This document shows, piece by piece, positions 1 through 26,579 of a stretch of 26,650 nucleotides of DNA. Each line of letters begins with the position of its first letter. The stretch's first letter is position 1. This DNA comes from a virus. A model generated the notes under the pieces. That model did no database searches and was not told the origin of the DNA. It worked only from the letters and a program-made list of their open reading frames with translations. The stretch is from positions 1 through 26,650 of the IMG/VR virus record IMGVR_UViG_3300030385_001328; one strand, 5' to 3'. The position numbers and the translations under genes are program-made.

Positions 1-16
1 TAGATTTATATTCATA

Positions 17-40
17 CCCGAAATTAGCTATCGGGGGGGG
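17..40 (+). other. Small hairpin with a G8 run
   Basis: CCCGA (17-21) can pair with TCGGG (31-35) around a 9-base loop, and the 3' arm runs on into eight consecutive G. It lies upstream of the first small gene and of the terminase genes. If the genome is circular or opened near a packaging site, this is the gap between the HNH gene and the small terminase. The role is unknown. Confidence 0.35.
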
Positions 41-76
41 ATACAGTTTTAGTTCAGCAAACTTAAACCAAACACA

Positions 77-298
77 ATGGAAATATTTTTAATTTCAATC
101 TTAGTTTTTTTTATCTTAAACTTTTTAGGAAAGCAACTTCTTAAAACAATTAAAAAAAATGAAACACAAAAAAGACACCCTTATTTTTTAAAGGATGATA
201 TAGATTACAACTATAAACCAAAATGCAAATGTGATGGCTCAAGGACGAAAAAAATTACCGACAAAATTAAAGAAACTTCAGGGAACACTGAAAGCTGA
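77..298 (+). CDS. Small membrane-anchored protein of unknown function
   Basis: The 73-residue product begins with a hydrophobic helix (about residues 3-20, rich in I, L, V and F), followed by a basic and polar tail with a C-K-C motif near residues 49-51. This looks like a single-pass or anchored membrane protein with a cytoplasmic tail. I recognise no family. The last 65 bases overlap the small terminase gene in another frame, so the C-terminal part is compositionally constrained. The ATG follows an A-rich leader, as in neighbouring genes. It could be spurious. The clean membrane segment followed by a soluble tail argues that it is real. Confidence 0.45.
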   Translation: MEIFLISILVFFILNFLGKQLLKTIKKNETQKRHPYFLKDDIDYNYKPKCKCDGSRTKKITDKIKETSGNTES

Positions 299-710
299 GC
301 GGGTTTTAAACAATGAAATGGAAGTGGCGCTAGTGGTAAATATACCGCCAGCACCGCGCTGGCTTACAAAAATCGCTGCGCAAGAGTGGAAAAATGTTTG
401 CTTTGAATTATTTAATAAACAAATGCTACACAAAATTGACTTGCGATTCATAGAAGCTTACTGCAATGCAATGGCCTTACATATTGAAACGGAAATGATG
501 CTACGCAAAGAAGGGAGAATTCAAGTGTTTAAAAATGCTGATGGCACTATTAAGCACACGCAAAGCACCCCGTATCAAAAAATTGCAAACGATGCACTAG
601 ACAAAGCGTTAAAAATAGCCGCGCAGTTTGGCCTTACTCCGTGCGCCCGCACTAATATAAGCCAGCCAACACTGATCCAAACCAATAATGAATTCAACTT
701 CTTTGAATAA
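234..710 (+). CDS. terS: Terminase small subunit, P27 family
   Basis: The small terminase recognises phage DNA and recruits the large subunit for packaging. The 158-residue product starts MAQGRKKLPTKLKKLQGT, and the basic N-terminus with K-LQGT is typical of P27-family small terminases. A central helical segment follows (about residues 50-100, with AAQEWKNVC), then the usual C-terminal part (KIANDALDKALKIAAQFGLTP). I chose ATG 234 over an in-frame GTG at 231. The 3' end overlaps the large terminase start by 23 bases, the normal terS-terL arrangement. Confidence 0.88.
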   Translation: MAQGRKKLPTKLKKLQGTLKAERVLNNEMEVALVVNIPPAPRWLTKIAAQEWKNVCFELFNKQMLHKIDLRFIEAYCNAMALHIETEMMLRKEGRIQVFKNADGTIKHTQSTPYQKIANDALDKALKIAAQFGLTPCARTNISQPTLIQTNNEFNFFE

Positions 711-2265
711 AAAATATACTTTTGATAAAAAAGCGGCCGATCGTGCTGTGGCTTTTATAGAAACCCATATCCGCCACTGCAAAGGCGACTTGACTGGACA
801 GAAATTTATACTTGAAAAGTGGCAAAAGGATGAAATTATCAGGCCACTTTTTGGATGTAAGTTTAAAAAAACTGGCTTGCGTAGATACCGAACTTGCTAT
901 GTAGAAATTCCACGCAAGAACGGGAAGAGCAGCTTAGGCGCAGCCCTTGCTTTGTTTATGTTATTTGCAGATAGCGAACGCGGTGCGGAAATCTTTAGCT
1001 GCGCAGCCGATCGCAACCAAGCCAGTATCATTTTTAACATTGCAAAAACTATGGTAGAACTTTCTCCAGAATTATCAGCACGCGGAAAAGTATATAGAAA
1101 CAGCATAGTGAATCCAGTAAAAGGAAACACTTATAAAGTATTAAGTGCGGATGCAAAATTAGCGCACGGACATAATTCACACGGAATTTTTTTTGACGAA
1201 TTACACACGCAAAGGGATAGAACTTTGTTTGATGCTATGCAAACCAGCACGGGCGCGCGTAGCCAAAGCTTGATGATGTGTATTACTACGGCTGGCGCAA
1301 GCAAAACCGATGGAAATATTTGCTGGGAAATGCACGATTATGCTTCCAAAGTAAAAGAGGGGATAATAAAAGATGAAAGCTTTTTGCCCGTTATTTATGC
1401 AGCTGAGGAAAATGATGATATCCAACTTGTAAGCACTTGGAAAAAAGCAAACCCAAACTTCGATATCAGCATAAAAAAAGATTATTTTAAACGCGAAAGC
1501 GCAAAGGCGCGCGAGCTAGTTAGTTATGAAAATACTTTTAAGCGGCTGCATCTCAACATCTGGACAACCAATATAACGAAATGGATAGCCGATGATGTAT
1601 GGTGCGAAAACGCCAGCAAAATAAATCTAAAAGATTTGGAGGGGCGCGATTGCTGGGGCGGCTTAGATTTGGCCAGCACCCGCGATCTGAGTAGTTTGGT
1701 TTTACTATTCCCGATGGATGATGAAAAGTATATTGCTTTGCCTTTTTTTTGGCTACCGCGTGAAACAATTTACAACCGCGTTATGAAGGATAAAGTGCTT
1801 TATAATAAGTGGGTGGATCAAGGATTTATTTTTGCAAGCGAGGGCGATGTTCAAGATTATGAATTTATCCGTAAACAAATAAATGATCTAGGCGGAAAAT
1901 ACAATATAAAAAGCATCGCTTTTGACCGCTGGAACAGTTCGCAGCTGGTGGTAAATTTAGCAAATGATGGATGCACCCTTAGCCCCTTTGGACAAGGATT
2001 TGCCAGTATGAGCGCACCGACAAAAGAACTTGAAAAGATTATATTAAAAAGAAATTTGAACCACTTAGAAAACCCAGTGCTGCGCTGGCAGTGCTCCAAT
2101 GTTAGCTTACGAACAGATCCCGCTTTAAATATAAAAATTGACAAAGCCAAAAGCAGTGAAAAAGTGGATGGGATGGTGGCCTTAGTTATGGCACTGGGCG
2201 AATATTTAACTGATGAAACTGAAGGAAATAGCGTTTACGATGAACGCGGAATTTTAACATTATGA
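688..2265 (+). CDS. terL: Terminase large subunit (ATPase and nuclease)
   Basis: This is the packaging motor that pumps and cuts phage DNA. The 525-residue protein has a Walker A-type motif PRKNGKSS (75-82), Walker B GIFFDELHT (166-174), the coupling motif ITTAGAS (199-205), and a linker LHLNIWTT (287-294). An RNase H-like nuclease domain follows, with acidic residues in GGLDLASTRD (D327), AFDRWNSSQL (D412) and near the end in KVDGMVAL. This is the Terminase_1 family at its usual length. It starts inside the terS gene, and its stop overlaps the next ATG (ATGA at 2262). Confidence 0.96.
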   Translation: MNSTSLNKKYTFDKKAADRAVAFIETHIRHCKGDLTGQKFILEKWQKDEIIRPLFGCKFKKTGLRRYRTCYVEIPRKNGKSSLGAALALFMLFADSERGAEIFSCAADRNQASIIFNIAKTMVELSPELSARGKVYRNSIVNPVKGNTYKVLSADAKLAHGHNSHGIFFDELHTQRDRTLFDAMQTSTGARSQSLMMCITTAGASKTDGNICWEMHDYASKVKEGIIKDESFLPVIYAAEENDDIQLVSTWKKANPNFDISIKKDYFKRESAKARELVSYENTFKRLHLNIWTTNITKWIADDVWCENASKINLKDLEGRDCWGGLDLASTRDLSSLVLLFPMDDEKYIALPFFWLPRETIYNRVMKDKVLYNKWVDQGFIFASEGDVQDYEFIRKQINDLGGKYNIKSIAFDRWNSSQLVVNLANDGCTLSPFGQGFASMSAPTKELEKIILKRNLNHLENPVLRWQCSNVSLRTDPALNIKIDKAKSSEKVDGMVALVMALGEYLTDETEGNSVYDERGILTL

Positions 2266-19929: not shown

Positions 19930-20241
19930 ATGGAAATGACTATACAAAGCACGCGCGTATTTACTGCGCTCAATGATTTAGCAACTAAATGGGAACGCGA
20001 TTTAGAGCAGCTAAAAAAACGGGAAAAGGAACTTAAAAAAAAGGACGATCAGCTTACAAGCTTGGCTGTTTCAATGGTGGCCGATAATACCTTAGAGCAT
20101 ATCATAGCCATACGGCAAGCCATAAGCGATTTACAACGCTTAGATGAACACGAAAAAACAATAACGAACAAACTGCTTGAAACTATGTTAAATCAAACCA
20201 ATTCTATTAACTTTAAAAAACCAAAAAAAGATGATAATTAA
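19930..20241 (+). CDS. Coiled-coil protein upstream of the SSB-like gene
   Basis: The 103-residue product has a long heptad-like region (WERDLEQLKKREKELKKKDDQ), then another helix (EHIIAIRQAISDLQRLDEHEKTITNKLLETML), and a basic end KKPKKDD. It should be an elongated helical protein, perhaps an oligomeric partner in replication. No named family is recognised. Its 3' end overlaps the SSB-like gene by 11 bases, suggesting coupled expression. Confidence 0.7.
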   Translation: MEMTIQSTRVFTALNDLATKWERDLEQLKKREKELKKKDDQLTSLAVSMVADNTLEHIIAIRQAISDLQRLDEHEKTITNKLLETMLNQTNSINFKKPKKDDN

Positions 20242-20707
20242 AACCAGCAAAGTAGTAAGCGTGCAATTCCTTAAAACTTGGGAAAGCCGCAAAGGAGATA
20301 CATTTTACGCACACCAAATCCAAATGGAAAACGGGGATTGCGGGGAATATTCCAGCAAAACAGAACAGCAAACCAAGTTTGTTGAAGGAGAACAAACGGA
20401 ATACGAATACCATCCGCACGACAGCTTCCCAAAAATAAAGCCGCACTATGCGCGGCCGCAATTTACGGGCAATGCTATGCAGAACGAAAATACAATGATT
20501 CCAAGCGTAGCAATAAAAGCAAGCGCTGTATTTAATGCGGGGCGTAGCGCCACTGCGCAGCAAGTTGTAAAAGACGCAAGAGTTTTTGCCGCTTTTATTA
20601 ACGAACAGCCAGCCGAAACCGCACCGCCAGCTAAAACCATTGCACAGTTAAAAAAAGATGATAGCCCTGAAATTGTAATTACGGATTCCGAAGACTCCCC
20701 TTTTTAA
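20231..20707 (+). CDS. Putative single-stranded DNA-binding protein
   Basis: The 158-residue product has the outline of an SSB. It has an N-terminal beta-rich region of about 65 residues (KVVSVQFLKTWESRKGDTFY, then IQMENGDCGEYSSKTEQQ), which could be a compact OB fold. A low-complexity linker with many Ala, Pro and Gln follows, and the acidic tail ends DSEDSPF, like the DxPF tip that SSBs use to recruit replication proteins. The next gene is a DnaA-like DNA-binding protein. The call rests on the tail and context, not on a clear family match. Confidence 0.6.
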   Translation: MIIKTSKVVSVQFLKTWESRKGDTFYAHQIQMENGDCGEYSSKTEQQTKFVEGEQTEYEYHPHDSFPKIKPHYARPQFTGNAMQNENTMIPSVAIKASAVFNAGRSATAQQVVKDARVFAAFINEQPAETAPPAKTIAQLKKDDSPEIVITDSEDSPF

Positions 20708-21097
20708 ATGGAAAACACTATACTAAAAGCGAAGCTTATTTTAGCGCAGATGTTTGGTATTGGTGTATCGCACTTTGCAAAACATAAAAGCCGAAAAAAA
20801 AATGTTATTGAAGCACGCAGATTTTTGATTTATTTTTTGCGTAAGGAATTGAAAATAACTTTTGTGGAAATTTGCAAATACATTCCCGCACTAACAAACC
20901 ACGCCACAGCAATACACCACTATAAAAGGATGAAGGAGCTGCAAACAGTTGAAGCGCCAATCCAACGCAAATACGAGGAATTTAAGAACACCCTTTTAAG
21001 TGATGAAACGCTATCTATCCAGCGTGAAATAATTGGCTTGGCAAATATGCGCACCCACTTATCCACACAAATAAACCAACTAAAAAAACTGTTATGA
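20708..21097 (+). CDS. DnaA domain IV-like DNA-binding protein
   Basis: The 129-residue product carries a region (about 28-80) like the C-terminal DNA-binding domain of DnaA: SRKKNVIEARRFLIYFLRKE, then TFVEICKYIP and the signature-like NHATAIHHYKRMKEL (compare DHTTVLHA in bacterial DnaA). It lacks the AAA+ ATPase domain. It may bind DnaA boxes to open the phage origin or titrate host sites. A perfect DnaA box lies in its own 3' end. The start directly abuts the SSB-like stop, and the stop overlaps the next ATG. Confidence 0.75.
   Translation: MENTILKAKLILAQMFGIGVSHFAKHKSRKKNVIEARRFLIYFLRKELKITFVEICKYIPALTNHATAIHHYKRMKELQTVEAPIQRKYEEFKNTLLSDETLSIQREIIGLANMRTHLSTQINQLKKLL
21059..21067 (+). other. 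Consensus DnaA box inside the DnaA-like gene
   Basis: TTATCCACA is a perfect match to the bacterial DnaA box. It lies in codons for H-L-S-T of the DnaA domain IV-like protein, near its 3' end. It is the only perfect copy I noticed by eye. It may mark part of a replication origin. Confidence 0.5.
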
Positions 21098-21369
21098 AAT
21101 TACAAATTACAAGTTTCAAGAATACGCCTAGCAAATACGGGGGATTTTTTTACTATGTATTTTTTAAGGACGATGCTGGCAAAAATTACAAAAGCTGCAT
21201 CTATCCAAATTGTAGGAACTTTAATAAGTGGCGCAGTGTTTTAAAACGCGGTGCTGTCTTGGATAATTTAATACTAAAAAGTGCGGGCTTAGTTGATGCC
21301 GATAGCAATTTTACTTTTTTAGGTATTAAGCAAAGCAAGCCAAAACCGCACCAGCCAAAACTATTTTGA
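21094..21369 (+). CDS. Small beta-rich hypothetical protein in the replication cluster
   Basis: The 91-residue product is beta-rich (KYGGFFYYVFFKDDAGKNY), then SCIYPNCRNFNKWRSVLKRG and a lysine/proline tail. The layout of short strands with a glycine turn is compatible with a small OB-like fold, so a nucleic-acid role is possible. The two cysteines in SCIYPNC do not form a standard zinc site. It is coupled by ATGA overlap to the DnaA-like gene. Confidence 0.68.
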   Translation: MKLQITSFKNTPSKYGGFFYYVFFKDDAGKNYKSCIYPNCRNFNKWRSVLKRGAVLDNLILKSAGLVDADSNFTFLGIKQSKPKPHQPKLF

Positions 21370-21370
21370 T

Positions 21371-21643
21371 ATGAAATTATTTGAAGATGATTTTGGTATT
21401 GATACCAGCGCACCAGATGCAACTGAAATAACTACAACGATTCTTTATTTTAGCAAAGAAGAAATGAAACTATTTAAACAGCTTTGCAAAAAAGGAATGC
21501 AAAAGGAAATGCTAAATTTAAGCACTGCAAATATATCCGATTTTTTATTACTAATATTAAAACAAAAATATGAGAATTTACAAATTAAAGAAACACCTGA
21601 CAGCAAGCCAATCAGCGAAACTCAAGGGAACTTTTTTGGATGA
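21371..21643 (+). CDS. Small hypothetical protein overlapping the TET/JBP gene
   Basis: The 90-residue product has an acidic N-terminus (LFEDDFGIDTSAPD), a helical middle (FSKEEMKLFKQLCKKGMQK, then ANISDFLLLILKQKYENL) and a polar tail. I recognise no family. The helical middle looks like a ribbon-helix-helix or small DNA-associated domain, but no motif decides it. Its last 74 bases overlap the dioxygenase gene in another frame, an unusually long overlap, suggesting that the two are linked. Confidence 0.65.
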   Translation: MKLFEDDFGIDTSAPDATEITTTILYFSKEEMKLFKQLCKKGMQKEMLNLSTANISDFLLLILKQKYENLQIKETPDSKPISETQGNFFG

Positions 21644-22433
21644 TAATAGTTATGATTTTATAATAGATCACGATGCTGATGGGTTTGATTTATACGGGAA
21701 TTTATTATTTAGATTTCGCAAAGGTGCTTTGCCTTATAATGTATTAAAGAACGGATATGATAGTTTTAAGGACAGCATAGAACTGACTGAGGGGCGCGGT
21801 ATAGCCAGCGGGAGCAGCCACAAAAGAATCTTAAAAGATGGAACAGTAAGTAAAATAACTGTGGGAAATAAAGTGCTAAGCGGGAATGTAGGTTTTATGG
21901 ATAGAAATTCAATGATACATTATTGCCGAAAAACCGCCTTTGCACGCAGATATTTTGATAAGTTTAAAGCTGGAATTCCTTTTGTAGAATTTATAGATAA
22001 AAAATATCAAGAACTTTGCCCCGCTTTTTATAAAAAACAAAAGGCCATTGCAGCTGGCACAAATAGAAACTATGTAATAGGAGACACCAGCTTTACAACC
22101 ATAACAGTAAACAAGAATTTTAGAACTGCGGTGCATAAGGACAGCGGTGATTTTGGTGAGGGATTTGGAAACCTTATTGTCTATCGCGAGGGGGATGTAA
22201 AGGGTGGCCTTTTTGTTTTGCCAGAATATAGGGTGGCCGTAGATATGCAGAACTGCGATATTCTTTTTGTTGATGTGCATAAATGGCACGGCAATACTGA
22301 AATCATTACCAGCTTGCAAAGCTTCCGCGTCGCTTTTGTTTTATATTATCGGGAATATATGTATAAATGCAAGCAACCGCGTGAAGAATTGCAAAGTGTA
22401 AAAATTAACAAAACTGGATATCTAACATTATGA
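21570..22433 (+). CDS. TET/JBP-family 2-oxoglutarate/Fe(II) DNA dioxygenase
   Basis: This enzyme should oxidise the methyl group of a 5-methylpyrimidine in DNA (5-methylcytosine or thymine) to hydroxymethyl, using Fe(II) and 2-oxoglutarate. The 287-residue product shows the TET/JBP pattern: an N-terminal FRKGALP and GRGIASG (75-81), then the iron-binding HxD in AVHKDSGD (H189, D191), the strand GGLFVLPEYRV, the distal His in DVHKWHGNT (H240), and the 2-oxoglutarate-binding Arg in SFRVAFVLYY (R253). Its stop overlaps the glycosyltransferase start (ATGA). ATG 21570 lies inside the upstream gene; no later ATG precedes the conserved core. Confidence 0.9.
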   Translation: MRIYKLKKHLTASQSAKLKGTFLDDNSYDFIIDHDADGFDLYGNLLFRFRKGALPYNVLKNGYDSFKDSIELTEGRGIASGSSHKRILKDGTVSKITVGNKVLSGNVGFMDRNSMIHYCRKTAFARRYFDKFKAGIPFVEFIDKKYQELCPAFYKKQKAIAAGTNRNYVIGDTSFTTITVNKNFRTAVHKDSGDFGEGFGNLIVYREGDVKGGLFVLPEYRVAVDMQNCDILFVDVHKWHGNTEIITSLQSFRVAFVLYYREYMYKCKQPREELQSVKINKTGYLTL

Positions 22434-23245
22434 AAATATTTATTTTTACTTACGATAGATTCAATGAAATAACAACTAGCAGATATTTTGCTCAGCAAGA
22501 TCATTTTGTTTTGTGCCATTCAAAACACGCAAAAGATAAATTCTTACAAAGTGGAAATATTTTTGGAGAAATTATTGCAACTGAAAATCCAAAAGGGCTA
22601 AGCTATAATAGAAACGCGGCACTTGATATGATGCAACCAAATGAATGGGCGCTATTTTTTGTAGATGATTTAATTAAACTTACAATTCTGCAAAGTTATT
22701 ACAAGCAACCAACAAATGAGCTAGATATTGATTTTGACAATGTTCCTAAATATAGGGAAGAATTTAAGACAGAATGTAGTGCAGCTTCTTTTTTACAACT
22801 ATGCCAAGAAACTATATTACACGCAGAAAAAAAAGGTTTTAATTTATGCGGTTTTAGCTTAACAGATAACCCACTTTTTAGAGCCAAGAAATATGGATAT
22901 TGGAGTTTATCAGATGGGCGGTGCTGGCTAATTAAAAAAACGCACTTACGATTTGATGAGAATATACAGCTTATAGATGATACTTGTTTTACCGCAATGA
23001 ACTTAAAAGAATTCGGTGGAGTTGTGAATAATAATTGGATATTGCCGAATTGCCAAAGATACACCGCTGGGGCTTTTGGTAGTATAAAGAAACGATTAGA
23101 ACAAAAGATAAAAGAATGTAAATATCTTACAGAAAAATATCCGCAATTTATTTCTTATGCTGAAAAAAGCGGTTGGCCACTTGGCTCTCATATTAAGATA
23201 AGGCAAAACAGAACATATAATAAAAATCAAAAAACTTTATTCTAA
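22430..23245 (+). CDS. TET-associated glycosyltransferase (TAGT-like, GT-A fold)
   Basis: The 271-residue product looks like the glycosyltransferases found next to phage TET/JBP enzymes. It begins with a GT-A type strand (MKIFIFTYDRF), has GLSYNRNAALDMM (56-68) and the metal/sugar-nucleotide site FFVDDLIKL (D79, D80). Later come the acceptor-side pattern WLIKKTHLRFDENIQLIDDT (D183, D184) and NLKEFGGVVNN. It should transfer a sugar to the hydroxymethyl base made by the neighbouring dioxygenase. The sugar cannot be read from the sequence. It is coupled to the dioxygenase by ATGA and to the replication initiator by TAATG. Confidence 0.82.
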   Translation: MKIFIFTYDRFNEITTSRYFAQQDHFVLCHSKHAKDKFLQSGNIFGEIIATENPKGLSYNRNAALDMMQPNEWALFFVDDLIKLTILQSYYKQPTNELDIDFDNVPKYREEFKTECSAASFLQLCQETILHAEKKGFNLCGFSLTDNPLFRAKKYGYWSLSDGRCWLIKKTHLRFDENIQLIDDTCFTAMNLKEFGGVVNNNWILPNCQRYTAGAFGSIKKRLEQKIKECKYLTEKYPQFISYAEKSGWPLGSHIKIRQNRTYNKNQKTLF

Positions 23246-23907
23246 TGCAAGTTTTCCGCGTAATAAAGAATAAGAATTACACTACTATTTGCAATGGTAT
23301 TTATAAAGACAAAGGCCTAAGCTTAAAAGCAAAAGGTTTATTAAGTATGATTTTGAGTTTACCAGCTGGCTGGGATTTAACTATTAACGGGCTGGCAAAA
23401 ATATGCAAAGAAGGAAAGCGCGCCCTTAATTCAACAGCCGCAGAACTTATTGCAGCGGGTTATATAACGCGCCAGCAAGTGCGGGAGAATGGAAGCTTTG
23501 CTGGTTATGATTACTGCGTCTATGAACAGCCGCAATGCTTAAACGCGCAAACGCAAGACGCGCAAACGCAACAAAGCAACCAATTAAGTAATAAAGAAAT
23601 AAATACCTTATCTAATAAAGATAATATAAATATATTAGCTTTTAGAAAAATGAAATTTGGAACAGAAGTAAGCCAACTAAGTGCAGAAAATGGGATGGAT
23701 ATAAATGAAGCAAATAAGTTCCTAGATTACTGGACGGAAACCAATAACAGCGGAAAAAAAATGCTGTTTGAAATGCAGCGAACTTTTGATATTAATCTGC
23801 GCCTTAAACGCTGGGCGGCTAACAATAAAAACTGGAATAATAAAGGGCGTTCTAAATTAGAAGCGCAGCTTAGTGAATACAATAAAGGAAAAGAACTATT
23901 AAAATGA
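23245..23907 (+). CDS. Winged-helix replication initiator (DnaD/replisome organizer-like)
   Basis: The 220-residue product starts MQVFRVIKNKNYTTICNGIY, followed by KGLSLKAKGLLSMILSLPAGW and GLAKICKEGKRALNSTAAEL, the standard winged-helix start of phage replisome organizers. A Gln/Asn-rich linker (about 100-130) follows, then a C-terminal part NEANKFLDYWTETNNSGKKM with LRLKRWAANNKNW, typical of these proteins. It should bind the phage origin and recruit a helicase loader. The start overlaps the glycosyltransferase stop, and its stop overlaps the next gene. Confidence 0.82.
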   Translation: MQVFRVIKNKNYTTICNGIYKDKGLSLKAKGLLSMILSLPAGWDLTINGLAKICKEGKRALNSTAAELIAAGYITRQQVRENGSFAGYDYCVYEQPQCLNAQTQDAQTQQSNQLSNKEINTLSNKDNINILAFRKMKFGTEVSQLSAENGMDINEANKFLDYWTETNNSGKKMLFEMQRTFDINLRLKRWAANNKNWNNKGRSKLEAQLSEYNKGKELLK

Positions 23908-24236
23908 CAGTGGAAAAAGTTTATGATTTAATCGCGAAAACCAGCTTAGAACTTGGCTACAATACAGACGGGGAAACAATGGCTGCGCTGGCAAAAATAT
24001 TTGCCAACGATTTGCAAACAGATAAGCGCCTTAAACGATTAAGCTTTGCGGATGTTGAAATGGCGTTCCGCTTGGGCGTGCGTTATAGTAAAGAACAGCA
24101 ATTCCTTAATATTACTACATTCTATCGCTGGTGCTTTGTTATGAAAAAAAGAATAGATGAAGCAATTTATGCAGTTGAATGCCAAAACCAAAACCCAAAC
24201 GAAATAGAATATTATCCTAAAAATTTATTGAAATGA
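23904..24236 (+). CDS. Hypothetical protein next to the replication initiator, possible helicase-loader role
   Basis: The 110-residue product is mostly helical (VEKVYDLIAKTSLELGYN, LAKIFANDLQTDKRLKRLSF) with MAFRLGVRYSKEQQFLNITT and an end rich in Asn. It overlaps the initiator by ATGA. The position fits a small helicase loader or adaptor, and the helical layout does not argue against it. No family motif is seen, so this role is inference from position only. Confidence 0.7.
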   Translation: MTVEKVYDLIAKTSLELGYNTDGETMAALAKIFANDLQTDKRLKRLSFADVEMAFRLGVRYSKEQQFLNITTFYRWCFVMKKRIDEAIYAVECQNQNPNEIEYYPKNLLK

Positions 24237-24403
24237 AAATACTTTTACTAATCTATTTAGTAGTGCTGTTTCTTTGTATATTGGAAGCTTACTTTTGCAC
24301 CATAACAATAGAAGAAGAAACGGAATATACTTGTTGCAATATAGAAATCACACAAGAAATAAAAGATAACGGGATTTGCCCTAAATGTTTAGAACACTTA
24401 TAA
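24233..24403 (+). CDS. Small membrane protein with Cys-rich tail
   Basis: The 56-residue product has an N-terminal hydrophobic helix (MKILLLIYLVVLFLCILEAY), then a soluble acidic part with EYTCCNIEIT and a final CPKC (about residues 49-52). The Cys pairs could bind zinc, giving a membrane-tethered zinc-ribbon-like tail. Alternatively the first helix is a signal peptide and the Cys form disulfides outside the membrane. It starts by ATGA overlap with the previous gene, which supports it. Confidence 0.62.
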   Translation: MKILLLIYLVVLFLCILEAYFCTITIEEETEYTCCNIEITQEIKDNGICPKCLEHL

Positions 24404-24405
24404 AA

Positions 24406-24603
24406 ATGGCTTTATTTATCTGCAAACATTGTAAAAAGGAAAAGGAATTAAAAAAGCAAACGCTTATATTGATAGAGAGTAATACGCTTCAATCAAGATG
24501 GATAGTAAAAGAATCGCTTTGCAAGTGCGGAAACTATATGCAAACAAAAACTGAAAAAGGGATGCCTTATATAATTAGAAATGAAAATCCTATAAAAAAA
24601 TAA
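24406..24603 (+). CDS. Small zinc-ribbon-like protein
   Basis: From ATG 24406 the product is 65 residues, with CKHC near the start and CKC about 35 residues later (SLCKCGNYM), a zinc-ribbon-like arrangement. It then has TKTEKGMPYIIRNENP. An in-frame ATG at 24385 would add seven residues but lies inside the previous gene. ATG 24406, two bases after the upstream stop, is preferred. Function unknown; small zinc ribbons in phages often bind nucleic acid or host polymerase. Confidence 0.65.
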   Translation: MALFICKHCKKEKELKKQTLILIESNTLQSRWIVKESLCKCGNYMQTKTEKGMPYIIRNENPIKK

Positions 24604-24607
24604 TAAA

Positions 24608-25084
24608 ATGACAAAGCACTTAATAAACGGAAAACCTTATAGCCACTATGAAACAAAAAAGAAAACGGAATTGCAAAACATAGTAAAAGGAATGGGCGTA
24701 AAACTTGAAAAGATTATTGTAATAACTTCAAAACCTTTTGAAGTAGCAGCCAGTAAATTAGATCCCGCGACTGATAGCTACTATTCGGACACAGAAACTA
24801 CAACGGGAAAGCTGGTATTTATAGGCCACAAAGATAAACTTGATGCTTGCTTGGAATGGCTTAAAGAAGTAGGACAATATGATAAGATAGATGAATTATA
24901 TATATTTGATCGCTATCATATTAGCGGGGAAGATATGATAGAAAGCTACTATGAAAAAATGCACGAATACAATTTAGAAATAACCATAAAAGATAAATTC
25001 AAAGAATGCTGGTGGAATGGCAATCCAAAAGGATGCCAGCTGTTTAAGGAATACGCGCTAGATCCAAACAACGAACGATGGTAA
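24608..25084 (+). CDS. Hypothetical protein, possible alpha/beta fold
   Basis: The 158-residue product has an N-terminal helical part (HYETKKKTELQNIVKGMGVK), then strand-helix alternation (KIIVITSKPFEVAASKL, KLVFIGHKDKLDACLEWLKE, ELYIFDRYHISGEDMIESYY), and ends CWWNGNPKGCQLFKEYALD. It looks like a small alpha/beta domain. No catalytic motif or family is recognised. The start is four bases after the upstream stop and the stop overlaps the next gene. Confidence 0.75.
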   Translation: MTKHLINGKPYSHYETKKKTELQNIVKGMGVKLEKIIVITSKPFEVAASKLDPATDSYYSDTETTTGKLVFIGHKDKLDACLEWLKEVGQYDKIDELYIFDRYHISGEDMIESYYEKMHEYNLEITIKDKFKECWWNGNPKGCQLFKEYALDPNNERW

Positions 25085-25263
25085 AAGTAAGCGCCAATAC
25101 AAGAGCAACCAATAAAGGAAAGCTGATACATTGCCCGCAATGTGATTATCCCGTTAAAGTTTATAACTTTGCGTTCAGTAAATTAAAGTGCTGGCACTGC
25201 AAAAAAGAAATAAAGAAAACTGATTACTATTTAAAAAGCCATTATGAACGAAAGAACTTATAG
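25078..25263 (+). CDS. Zinc-ribbon protein of a type common in marine phages
   Basis: The 61-residue product starts MVKVSANTRATNKGKLIHCP and has CPQC and, about 16 residues later, CWHC, a classical four-Cys zinc ribbon, then KKTDYYL. As I recall, proteins starting KVS-TR-TN-GK and carrying this ribbon are widespread in marine phages, with no known function. Start and stop overlap both neighbouring genes. A DNA- or RNA-binding or transcription-modulating role is a reasonable guess. Confidence 0.8.
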   Translation: MVKVSANTRATNKGKLIHCPQCDYPVKVYNFAFSKLKCWHCKKEIKKTDYYLKSHYERKNL

Positions 25264-25432
25264 AACAATTAAATGGGTGCTTAAATACCAAATAGACAAA
25301 GGAAGGAATTTAGTTTGGTATTACAAAAACAATAATTTCACTTGCGTTTATAATAAACAACCGAACGGAATTAAAGTTTACACTGCAAAGCAATTACTAA
25401 AAAAACTAAATGAAAGCCCTGATTCAATTTGA
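25244..25432 (+). CDS. Small basic hypothetical protein
   Basis: The 62-residue product is basic and aromatic (RTIKWVLKYQIDKGRNLVWY, YKNNNFTCVYNKQPNGIKVY) and ends KQLLKKLNESPDSI. A short beta-hairpin followed by a helix is plausible. No family recognised. It overlaps the genes on both sides (20 and 23 bases), as real genes of this cluster do. Confidence 0.6.
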   Translation: MNERTYRTIKWVLKYQIDKGRNLVWYYKNNNFTCVYNKQPNGIKVYTAKQLLKKLNESPDSI

Positions 25433-25607
25433 AATTAATAGCCAGCAACTTAATGATGAGCAATTAAAAGATCGCCTTATAAATACAATGGTAAACCTGT
25501 GCGAACAATGGCTAAAAGGAGATGCAGCGCTTTACATTGATTTTATTAAAACAATAAAAGATGAAGATATTAAATATTATAGGAATAACGATAAGAACAT
25601 TAATTGA
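25410..25607 (+). CDS. Small acidic helical hypothetical protein
   Basis: The 65-residue product begins MKALIQFEINSQQLNDEQLK, followed by NTMVNLCEQWLKGDAALYID and a charged end. It is probably helical and perhaps an interaction partner of another early protein. No family recognised. Both ends overlap neighbouring genes; the 3' end overlaps a small membrane protein gene by 47 bases. Confidence 0.58.
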   Translation: MKALIQFEINSQQLNDEQLKDRLINTMVNLCEQWLKGDAALYIDFIKTIKDEDIKYYRNNDKNIN

Positions 25608-25725
25608 ATTAGTAATAACGCTCAGCTTTGTGCTGGCTGTTAGTGCATTGAGTTTTGTATTAACATTTGCTTTAAATACCATAAGAGTAATGTATTTAAA
25701 GTATAAACAAGATATAAACGATTAA
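25561..25725 (+). CDS. Small membrane protein
   Basis: The 54-residue product (start MKILNIIGITIRTLIELVIT) is dominated by one or two hydrophobic segments (about residues 4-40, with LSFVLAVSALSFVLTFAL) and ends in a basic, polar tail (RVMYLKYKQDIND). By the positive-inside rule the tail should be cytoplasmic. Function unknown. It overlaps the previous gene by 47 bases and is the last gene before a promoter-like element. Confidence 0.5.
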   Translation: MKILNIIGITIRTLIELVITLSFVLAVSALSFVLTFALNTIRVMYLKYKQDIND

Positions 25726-25798
25726 CGGCTTCAATAGGTGCGTTCTAAGGAACTTATAACGATTATAGGTGATATGCCTTACAATTAAAATAAAATGC

Positions 25799-25806
25799 TA
25801 TATTTG
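25799..25806 (+). promoter_or_regulatory. Promoter -7 element before the nuclease genes
   Basis: TATATTTG matches the Bacteroidota TAnnTTTG -7 consensus and is identical to 9231-9238. A TTA at 25779-25781 is a poor stand-in for the -33 TTG. It lies 26 bases before ATG 25832 in a 106-base gap, so it could drive the VRR-NUC and HNH genes and, if the genome is circular, the terminase block. Confidence 0.5.
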
Positions 25807-25831
25807 CCACTTATTAAGAATATCCTAGATA

Positions 25832-26209
25832 ATGTCAGAAAGTAAACTGCAAACCAGCATCGTGAAATACTTACAATGGCAGCACCCGCATATTAAATAC
25901 TGTGCCAGCTTAGGCGGCCAGTATCAACGCTATCAATCACAACGGAATAAAGCTAAGGCGACTGGCTATGTAAAAGGATTCCCCGACTTACAAATAACAG
26001 AAGCGCGCGGTGGATACTTTGGAATGTTCATTGAGATAAAAGAAAAGGGTTATGCAACCAAAGATCAAACCCACTGGCTTAAAGAATTAAGGGAGCGCGG
26101 CTATTATGCAGAATGCTTAAAGGGCTTTGATAATATAAAAAAAGAAATTGATTTATACCTAAGCGCACCGCTAACAGTGGGCGTCCCGTATATACTAGAC
26201 AACGCCTAG
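25832..26209 (+). CDS. VRR-NUC domain nuclease
   Basis: The 125-residue product is a stand-alone VRR-NUC nuclease of the PD-(D/E)xK superfamily, a type that acts on branched DNA or junctions. It begins SESKLQTSIVKYLQWQHP, has ASLGGQ, then GYVKGFPDLQI (D52), FIEIKEKG (E68, K70) and Q79 in DQTHWLKELRERGY, then the last helix before YL. In a phage it probably resolves replication or recombination junctions before packaging. It lies directly upstream of the HNH gene and near the packaging genes if the genome is circular. Confidence 0.87.
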   Translation: MSESKLQTSIVKYLQWQHPHIKYCASLGGQYQRYQSQRNKAKATGYVKGFPDLQITEARGGYFGMFIEIKEKGYATKDQTHWLKELRERGYYAECLKGFDNIKKEIDLYLSAPLTVGVPYILDNA

Positions 26210-26240
26210 GAATTAAAACAAAAGAAATAAATATAAACTG

Positions 26241-26579
26241 ATGCCAACCTTCCCAAAGAAAAAAAAACGCCCGTGGATTCCCACACGCCAGCCCGCACCA
26301 ATAGGAAACACCAGCAGAAGCAAAACACCGAGTGATATCATTAAGTTTTATAATAGTAAACGCTGGCGCAGTTTAAGGGGCTACTACTTACAAATGAATC
26401 CGCTGTGTGAAATGTGTAAACGGGCTGGCTATATTACACCAGCCGAGGAGATAGATCACCGCACGCCAATAAGATTGGGAGGAAACCGCACCACACTGGA
26501 CAACCTTCAAAGCTTGTGCAAGCCGTGCCACGCCCGCAAAAGCGGACGCGAAGCCCATAGCTACAAAAATAAAAAATAA
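26241..26579 (+). CDS. HNH endonuclease, packaging-associated type
   Basis: The 112-residue product has a basic N-terminus (PTFPKKKKRPWIPTRQPAP), then YNSKRWRSLRGYYLQMNPLC. The zinc-binding cysteines are in LCEMC (C56, C59) and LCKPC (C93, C96). The catalytic motif is EIDHRTPIRLGG (D72, H73), N88 in DNLQ, and H97 in CHARKSG. HNH proteins of this size next to terminase genes assist cos cleavage in HK97-like phages. Here it ends 71 bases before the window edge, while terS is at the other edge. Confidence 0.9.
   Translation: MPTFPKKKKRPWIPTRQPAPIGNTSRSKTPSDIIKFYNSKRWRSLRGYYLQMNPLCEMCKRAGYITPAEEIDHRTPIRLGGNRTTLDNLQSLCKPCHARKSGREAHSYKNKK

Follow-up and report, generated by a model that had tools for sequence, protein, structure and literature searches.

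Phages such as ViI carry thymidines derived from 5-hydroxymethyldeoxyuridine (5hmdU), and a 5hmdU kinase followed by transferases acts in this thymidine hypermodification (PMC6449724). In the Rhodococcus phage Tonitrus, a set of ParB, TET-like, aGPT-PPlase2 and kinase genes has been described, which probably serves to hypermodify thymidine (PMC11955845). According to Burke et al. 2021 (as cited in PMC12730594), phages that combine a TET with a C5-methyltransferase and glycosyltransferases attach sugars to cytosine. The locus analysed here lies in the IMG/VR virus record IMGVR_UViG_3300030385_001328, and the window is the entire record of 26,650 bases. Its right-hand end (20708-26579) carries the gene for a TET/JBP-family dioxygenase, followed by the gene for a TAGT-like glycosyltransferase.

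The TET/JBP enzyme would hydroxylate the methyl group of thymine in the phage DNA to 5-hydroxymethyluracil (5hmU), and the adjoining TAGT-like enzyme would glycosylate this base. No methyltransferase would be needed, because the C5-methyl group of thymine itself is the group oxidised. On comparative evidence from sequence, this succession of thymine oxidation and glycosylation of 5hmU to a base-J-like mark is likely. The resulting glycosyl-5hmU would probably protect the phage DNA from host nucleases. Such a mark would be new as a variant, not as a kind; priority for the idea of thymine as substrate of some phage TET/JBPs probably lies with Iyer (2013).

The dioxygenase belongs to the TET/JBP family by profile, residues and fold. 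It scores 67.9 bits against the PF12851 profile (cut-off 34.9), and the metal ligands H189, D191 and H240, together with the 2-oxoglutarate (2OG) ligand R253, are invariant across 32 sequences. Its AlphaFold model (pLDDT 89) matches TET2 (Z 21.4), CMD1 (19.9), NgTET1 (18.0) and CcTet (17.8), against Z values of 13-15 for AlkB/FTO-like folds. D194 and R261 align with the positions of TET2 N1387 and H1904. Reading the substrate from these active-site residues was rejected, as the TET of Gordonia phage Wooper has N and L at the same positions and no rule emerges.

Genes were called around TET, and then clustered, in 111 loci whose TET belongs to the clade of the window or to its neighbours. In nearly all of them, either TAGT or AADT (amino acid:DNA transferase, PF18724, formerly aGPT-PPlase2) and/or kinase stands downstream of TET. 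This bears on whether the dioxygenase might act on something other than DNA pyrimidines, beside an unrelated glycosyltransferase. While 2OG dioxygenases have varied substrates, the fold is nearest to the DNA-acting TETs, the start codon of the glycosyltransferase overlaps the TET stop codon as in an operon, and the tailoring genes recur behind TET; a substrate of another kind is extremely improbable.

The initial annotation had seen no C5-methyltransferase and no thymidylate synthase-like gene beside TET, had assumed that a phage methyltransferase usually accompanies such enzymes, and had proposed methyltransferase profile searches of the full genome. The absence of the METHYLTRANSFERASE extends to the whole record, in which profile searches found no C5-methyltransferase (PF00145), no N4/N6 methyltransferase (PF01555) and no match to thymidylate synthase (PF00303), the sign of a 5hmU route at the nucleotide level. 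The assumption of a usual companion, by contrast, fails for this clade: PF00145 occurs in 12 of the 111 TET records and in one of the 24 that measure at least 26 kb. It was not found in the complete isolated phages P12024L, HTVC112P, Cr30, DLP6, S-CBWM1, C48C1 and Wooper, nor in the 27.4-kb genome of a close relative of the window, G001. The absence of a C5-methyltransferase is the rule for the TET clade. Among 50 records related through the large terminase subunit (TerL), none carries PF00145; these are fragments mostly from the structural-gene end and hence not a matched control, and the counts leave room for a mild enrichment of C5-methyltransferases near TET.

The strongest indication of the substrate comes from the tailoring genes. 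The slot after TET holds TAGT in 63 loci, AADT in 31 and a P-loop 5hmU-kinase-like protein in 39. TAGT is mutually exclusive with the kinase (p = 3e-19) and with AADT (p = 8e-12), and kinase and AADT co-occur (p = 3e-14). As far as the end of the gene that follows TET, loci L157 and L159 share 92% DNA identity, and their TETs agree at 287 of 288 residues; beyond this point L157 continues with AADT and kinase, and L159 with TAGT. The same swap, at 98% TET identity, separates L010 (kinase) from L006, L014 and L031 (TAGT). In a quick TET tree, with support by SH-aLRT only, the tailoring type changes 15 times by parsimony, and 8 of these changes are forced by well-supported branches. Because an oxidase with one residue changed hardly alters the base that it makes, both tailoring types would receive the same oxidised base. 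AADT and kinase point to 5hmU and therefore to thymine as the TET substrate, an option that the initial annotation had raised and that gains comparative support here.

The tailoring families connect the clade with known thymidine hypermodification. PF18724 matches the AADTs of L220 (3e-23), L175 (4e-21) and L202 (2e-19). The AADT of L156 has matches in 376 phages, Cba120 and PhaxI (7e-29) among them, in some of which the protein is annotated aGPT-PPlase2, and it resembles proteins of these ViI-like phages and of mycobacteriophages. The two kinase subgroups align to each other as profiles. Wooper encodes ParB, TET/JBP, AADT and an annotated '5-hmU DNA kinase', which falls in the PF18751-like P-loop family. 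In L230:7587-10607, from a gammaproteobacterial metagenome-assembled genome (MAG), one 1006-aa frame fuses TET (11-336) and kinase (817-999), and the locus also carries AADT. Cr30 has TET, AADT, TAGT and a kinase homologue together. AADT (PF18724) and kinase (PF18751) are absent beside the window TET and present beside the TETs of near relatives. Some kinase homologues are labelled 'terminase small subunit' or 'adenylate kinase' (NC_025422.1:51788-52333; mycobacteriophage genes near position 2875), which is probably misannotation.

Several points weigh against thymine. The case is comparative rather than chemical. The AADTs nearest the window TET (L156 and L157) fall below Pfam detection and are joined by pairwise similarity, the kinase matches PF18751 only marginally (27.1 bits at best, 23.7 or less in the others), and close to the window both families were assigned through clustering and pairwise similarity. 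No swap behind near-identical TETs involves the glycosyltransferase subtype of the window. The TAGT family is not thymine-specific, since the substrate of T6 TAGT is glucosylated hydroxymethylcytosine (PMC13216743). Since phage TETs that act on cytosine and come with glycosyltransferases are also known (PMC12730594, citing Burke et al. 2021), the presence of a TAGT is not in itself a sign of thymine. Finally, there are the 12 TET records with a C5-methyltransferase.

The two cytosine precedents speak for an alternative in which a host C5-methyltransferase supplies 5-methylcytosine (5mC) to TET, and the glycosyltransferase modifies the resulting 5-hydroxymethylcytosine (5hmC) at host-methylated motifs. 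A genome scan for the host gave only distant TETs, in MAGs. Such a host enzyme would have to serve TETs across hosts as different as Nonlabens, Pelagibacter, Caulobacter and Gordonia, which are infected by relatives that lack PF00145, and it leaves unexplained why TETs that are nearly identical occur with AADT and kinase, the genes of thymidine hypermodification. The host methyltransferase considered in the initial annotation is not needed and is an unlikely source.

The 12 records, in some of which PF00145 lies within a few kb of TET, and L177, which combines AADT, kinase and a C5-methyltransferase, speak for a promiscuous TET that oxidises both thymine and 5mC and also yields 5hmC in phages with a C5-methyltransferase. 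However, carriage of PF00145 is independent of tailoring type, as expected for independent restriction-evading methyltransferases, and the product in the window, which has no such gene, would be unchanged. Promiscuity of this kind is quite improbable.

It had also been suggested that the methyltransferase gene might lie outside the window. G001 and a second relative, G002 (both with about 80% DNA identity to the window), start at the base homologous to the window start, and many contigs among the TerL relatives start about 820 bases upstream of TerL, beside a short G-run. An HNH gene often stands before the terminase genes, which is the order found if the two ends of the record are joined. The record ends look like packaging ends, so few genes can be missing and the window is apparently a near-complete genome. 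The record is classed as linear without terminal repeat, and its right end is less firmly placed than the left, as G001 stops earlier relative to the HNH gene; both facts leave some space for a C5-methyltransferase in a small missing part. Yet the left end coincides in three genomes, the HNH gene precedes the terminase genes at the join, and neither G001 nor the complete phages P12024L, HTVC112P, Cr30 and Wooper carry PF00145. A gene outside the window is, on this basis, very unlikely.

The window glycosyltransferase scores 13.6 bits against PF20691 (TAGT), under the cut-off of 27.5, and is therefore called TAGT-like only; it is tied to the family through intermediates, as phmmer matches it to the TAGTs of L003 (2e-12) and L016 (2e-10), both above that cut-off. 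Its model matches GT-A folds (Z ~13-14), the acidic metal motif D79, D80 is invariant, and the C-terminal tail is disordered (pLDDT < 50). It represents a divergent TAGT subtype, grouped with L022 and L201, and a tblastn search against isolated phages gave no match.

This tail (23229-23245) ends in NQKTLF. The bacterial sliding-clamp-binding consensus is QL(S/D)LF (PMC9690074), with which QKTLF agrees at positions 1, 4 and 5, lacking the L at position 2. An exact QxxLF C-terminus is found in 91 of 166 tailoring proteins (55%) and in 11 of 1716 other open reading frames (ORFs) of the same loci (0.6%; p = 4e-95, which overstates the case, as the tail had been seen in an alignment before the set was picked, and kinship makes the proteins non-independent). 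By family, it ends 51 of 64 TAGTs, 16 of 37 kinases, 24 of 36 copies of a 151-aa nuclease-like neighbour, none of 29 AADTs and none of 111 TETs. Nine of the 11 other ORFs are DNA modifiers or genes of the modification slot, namely the two proteins that replace the glycosyltransferase in G001, and methyltransferases of the N4/N6 or C5 type. In phage P12024S, which has a GNAT/ATPase protein in place of the TET cassette, QxxLF ends both this protein and the N4/N6 methyltransferase. Only one of 922 ORFs in the TerL regions of relatives has it. Several families without a common origin share the tail.

Coupling to a clamp has a precedent in T4 alpha-glucosyltransferase, which co-purifies with the sliding clamp gp45 (PMC13216743). 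The distribution of the tails suggests that modification is coupled to replication, and the predicted clamp-binding QKTLF tail probably keeps the window glycosyltransferase at the replication fork. It is an even question whether the whole picture applies broadly, with many small phages making base-J-like glycosyl-5hmU by TET/JBP, unrelated modifiers sharing a clamp-binding tail tied to the host fork, and tailoring genes being swapped behind a conserved oxidase.

Other observations concern the modification slot and its tails. QxxLF tails occur on unrelated DNA-modifying families, including those of L001, L034, L049 and L159, and are rare elsewhere. A nuclease-like protein of about 151 aa (cluster 4, gene +1; loci L007-L031 and others) separates TET from the tailoring gene in 36 loci, and is not in the window. 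In the closest relative, L001:10861-12739 (G001 22221-24099; TET 85% identical), two other proteins occupy the place of the glycosyltransferase, a radical SAM/SPASM protein and one of 309 aa that belongs to no known family. They both end in QxxLF and may carry out a new DNA modification. P12024L and P12024S, which were isolated on a single host, have different modification cassettes between primase and helicase, with TET, TAGT and an N4/N6 methyltransferase in the former (L034:16207-18674) versus the GNAT/ATPase protein and small ORFs in the latter (L049:16313-17634).

The features of the window are collected in Table 1. The small ORF s72 lies directly upstream of TET in 68 of the 111 loci, and a ParB-like gene takes that place in 21 others; the two may stand in for each other as TET partners or specificity factors. 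Small ORFs lie between the replication-initiation-like gene and the VRR-NUC gene.

Table 1. Features of the 26,650-base window, with positions, strands and supporting matches.
Feature	Position	Strand	Match or remark
Left contig end with G-run	1-60	+	Homologous to G001/G002 starts; many TerL relatives start similarly; probably a packaging end
Terminase small subunit	231-710	+	phrog_83 3.1e-30
Terminase large subunit	688-2265	+	phrog_9 2.5e-157
158-aa protein with acidic end DSEDSPF, resembling the C-terminal tip of single-stranded-DNA-binding proteins	20231-20707		No PHROG match
DnaA C-terminal (domain IV)-like protein	20708-21097	+	PF08299 2.3e-6, slightly below cut-off
91-aa ORF, no family assigned, C-terminus HQPKLF	21094-21369	+	Homologues in G001 and G002 only
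Small ORF s72, 90 aa here, ~72 aa elsewhere	21371-21643	+	Overlaps TET start
TET/JBP-family Fe(II)/2OG dioxygenase, 287 aa	21570-22433	+	PF12851 8.2e-19; phrog_24024 4.9e-99
TAGT-like GT-A glycosyltransferase, 271 aa, C-terminus NQKTLF	22430-23245	+	phrog_842 2.7e-6
Replication-initiation-like helix-turn-helix protein	23245-23907	+	phrog_428 3.3e-18
VRR-NUC nuclease	25832-26209	+	PF08774 7.7e-7
HNH endonuclease, right genome end	26241-26579	+	PF01844 1.1e-11

Across the window (1-26650), the expected counts of ACGT, CCGG, GTAC and CATG are 41-60, yet the first three are missing and CATG is found once; GpC reaches 1.79 times expectation. Other TET phages avoid CATG, GATC or CTAG instead. This avoidance of four-base palindromes is probably due to host restriction pressure. 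A GpC-directed cytosine modification, read from the GpC excess and the missing ACGT, CCGG and GTAC, was considered and rejected. The composition profile is common to the closest relatives and differs in other TET phages, and, because P12024L and P12024S are alike in it with and without the cassette, it probably mirrors the hosts and not TET.

The TET clade offers a testable answer to the role of some solitary TAGTs. P12024L and P12024S, with one host and differing cassettes, form a natural test pair, and the QxxLF tail is a simple handle for spotting new DNA-modifying enzymes in such phages.

Among known systems, kinetoplastid base J, made by JBP1/JBP2 and JGT, shares with the window the action of a TET/JBP on thymine in DNA (as proposed here), followed by a glycosyltransferase on 5hmU; the window system differs in being phage-borne and in having a TAGT-like glycosyltransferase with a clamp-type tail. 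The thymidine hypermodification of Wooper and Tonitrus opens with the same enzyme family, and relatives of the window TET have AADT and kinase in the same slot, whereas the window itself has a glycosyltransferase in their stead and a small ORF in place of ParB. The cytosine system that PMC12730594 cites from Burke et al. (2021) likewise places TET and glycosyltransferase in one phage operon, but in the window no C5-methyltransferase was found, and its relatives have thymidine-type tailoring enzymes. T4 alpha-glucosyltransferase and T6 TAGT, the latter in PF20691, are DNA glycosyltransferases too; unlike the proposed window enzyme, they act on hydroxymethylcytosine made at the nucleotide level, and the T4 enzyme has a GT-B fold. 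In Nonlabens phage P12024L, gp26-gp27 (with gp25 and gp28) comprise a TET 68% identical over its full length and then a TAGT; the genome is complete and lacks PF00145. This phage belongs to a different group, carries an N4/N6 methyltransferase and has a different TAGT subtype.

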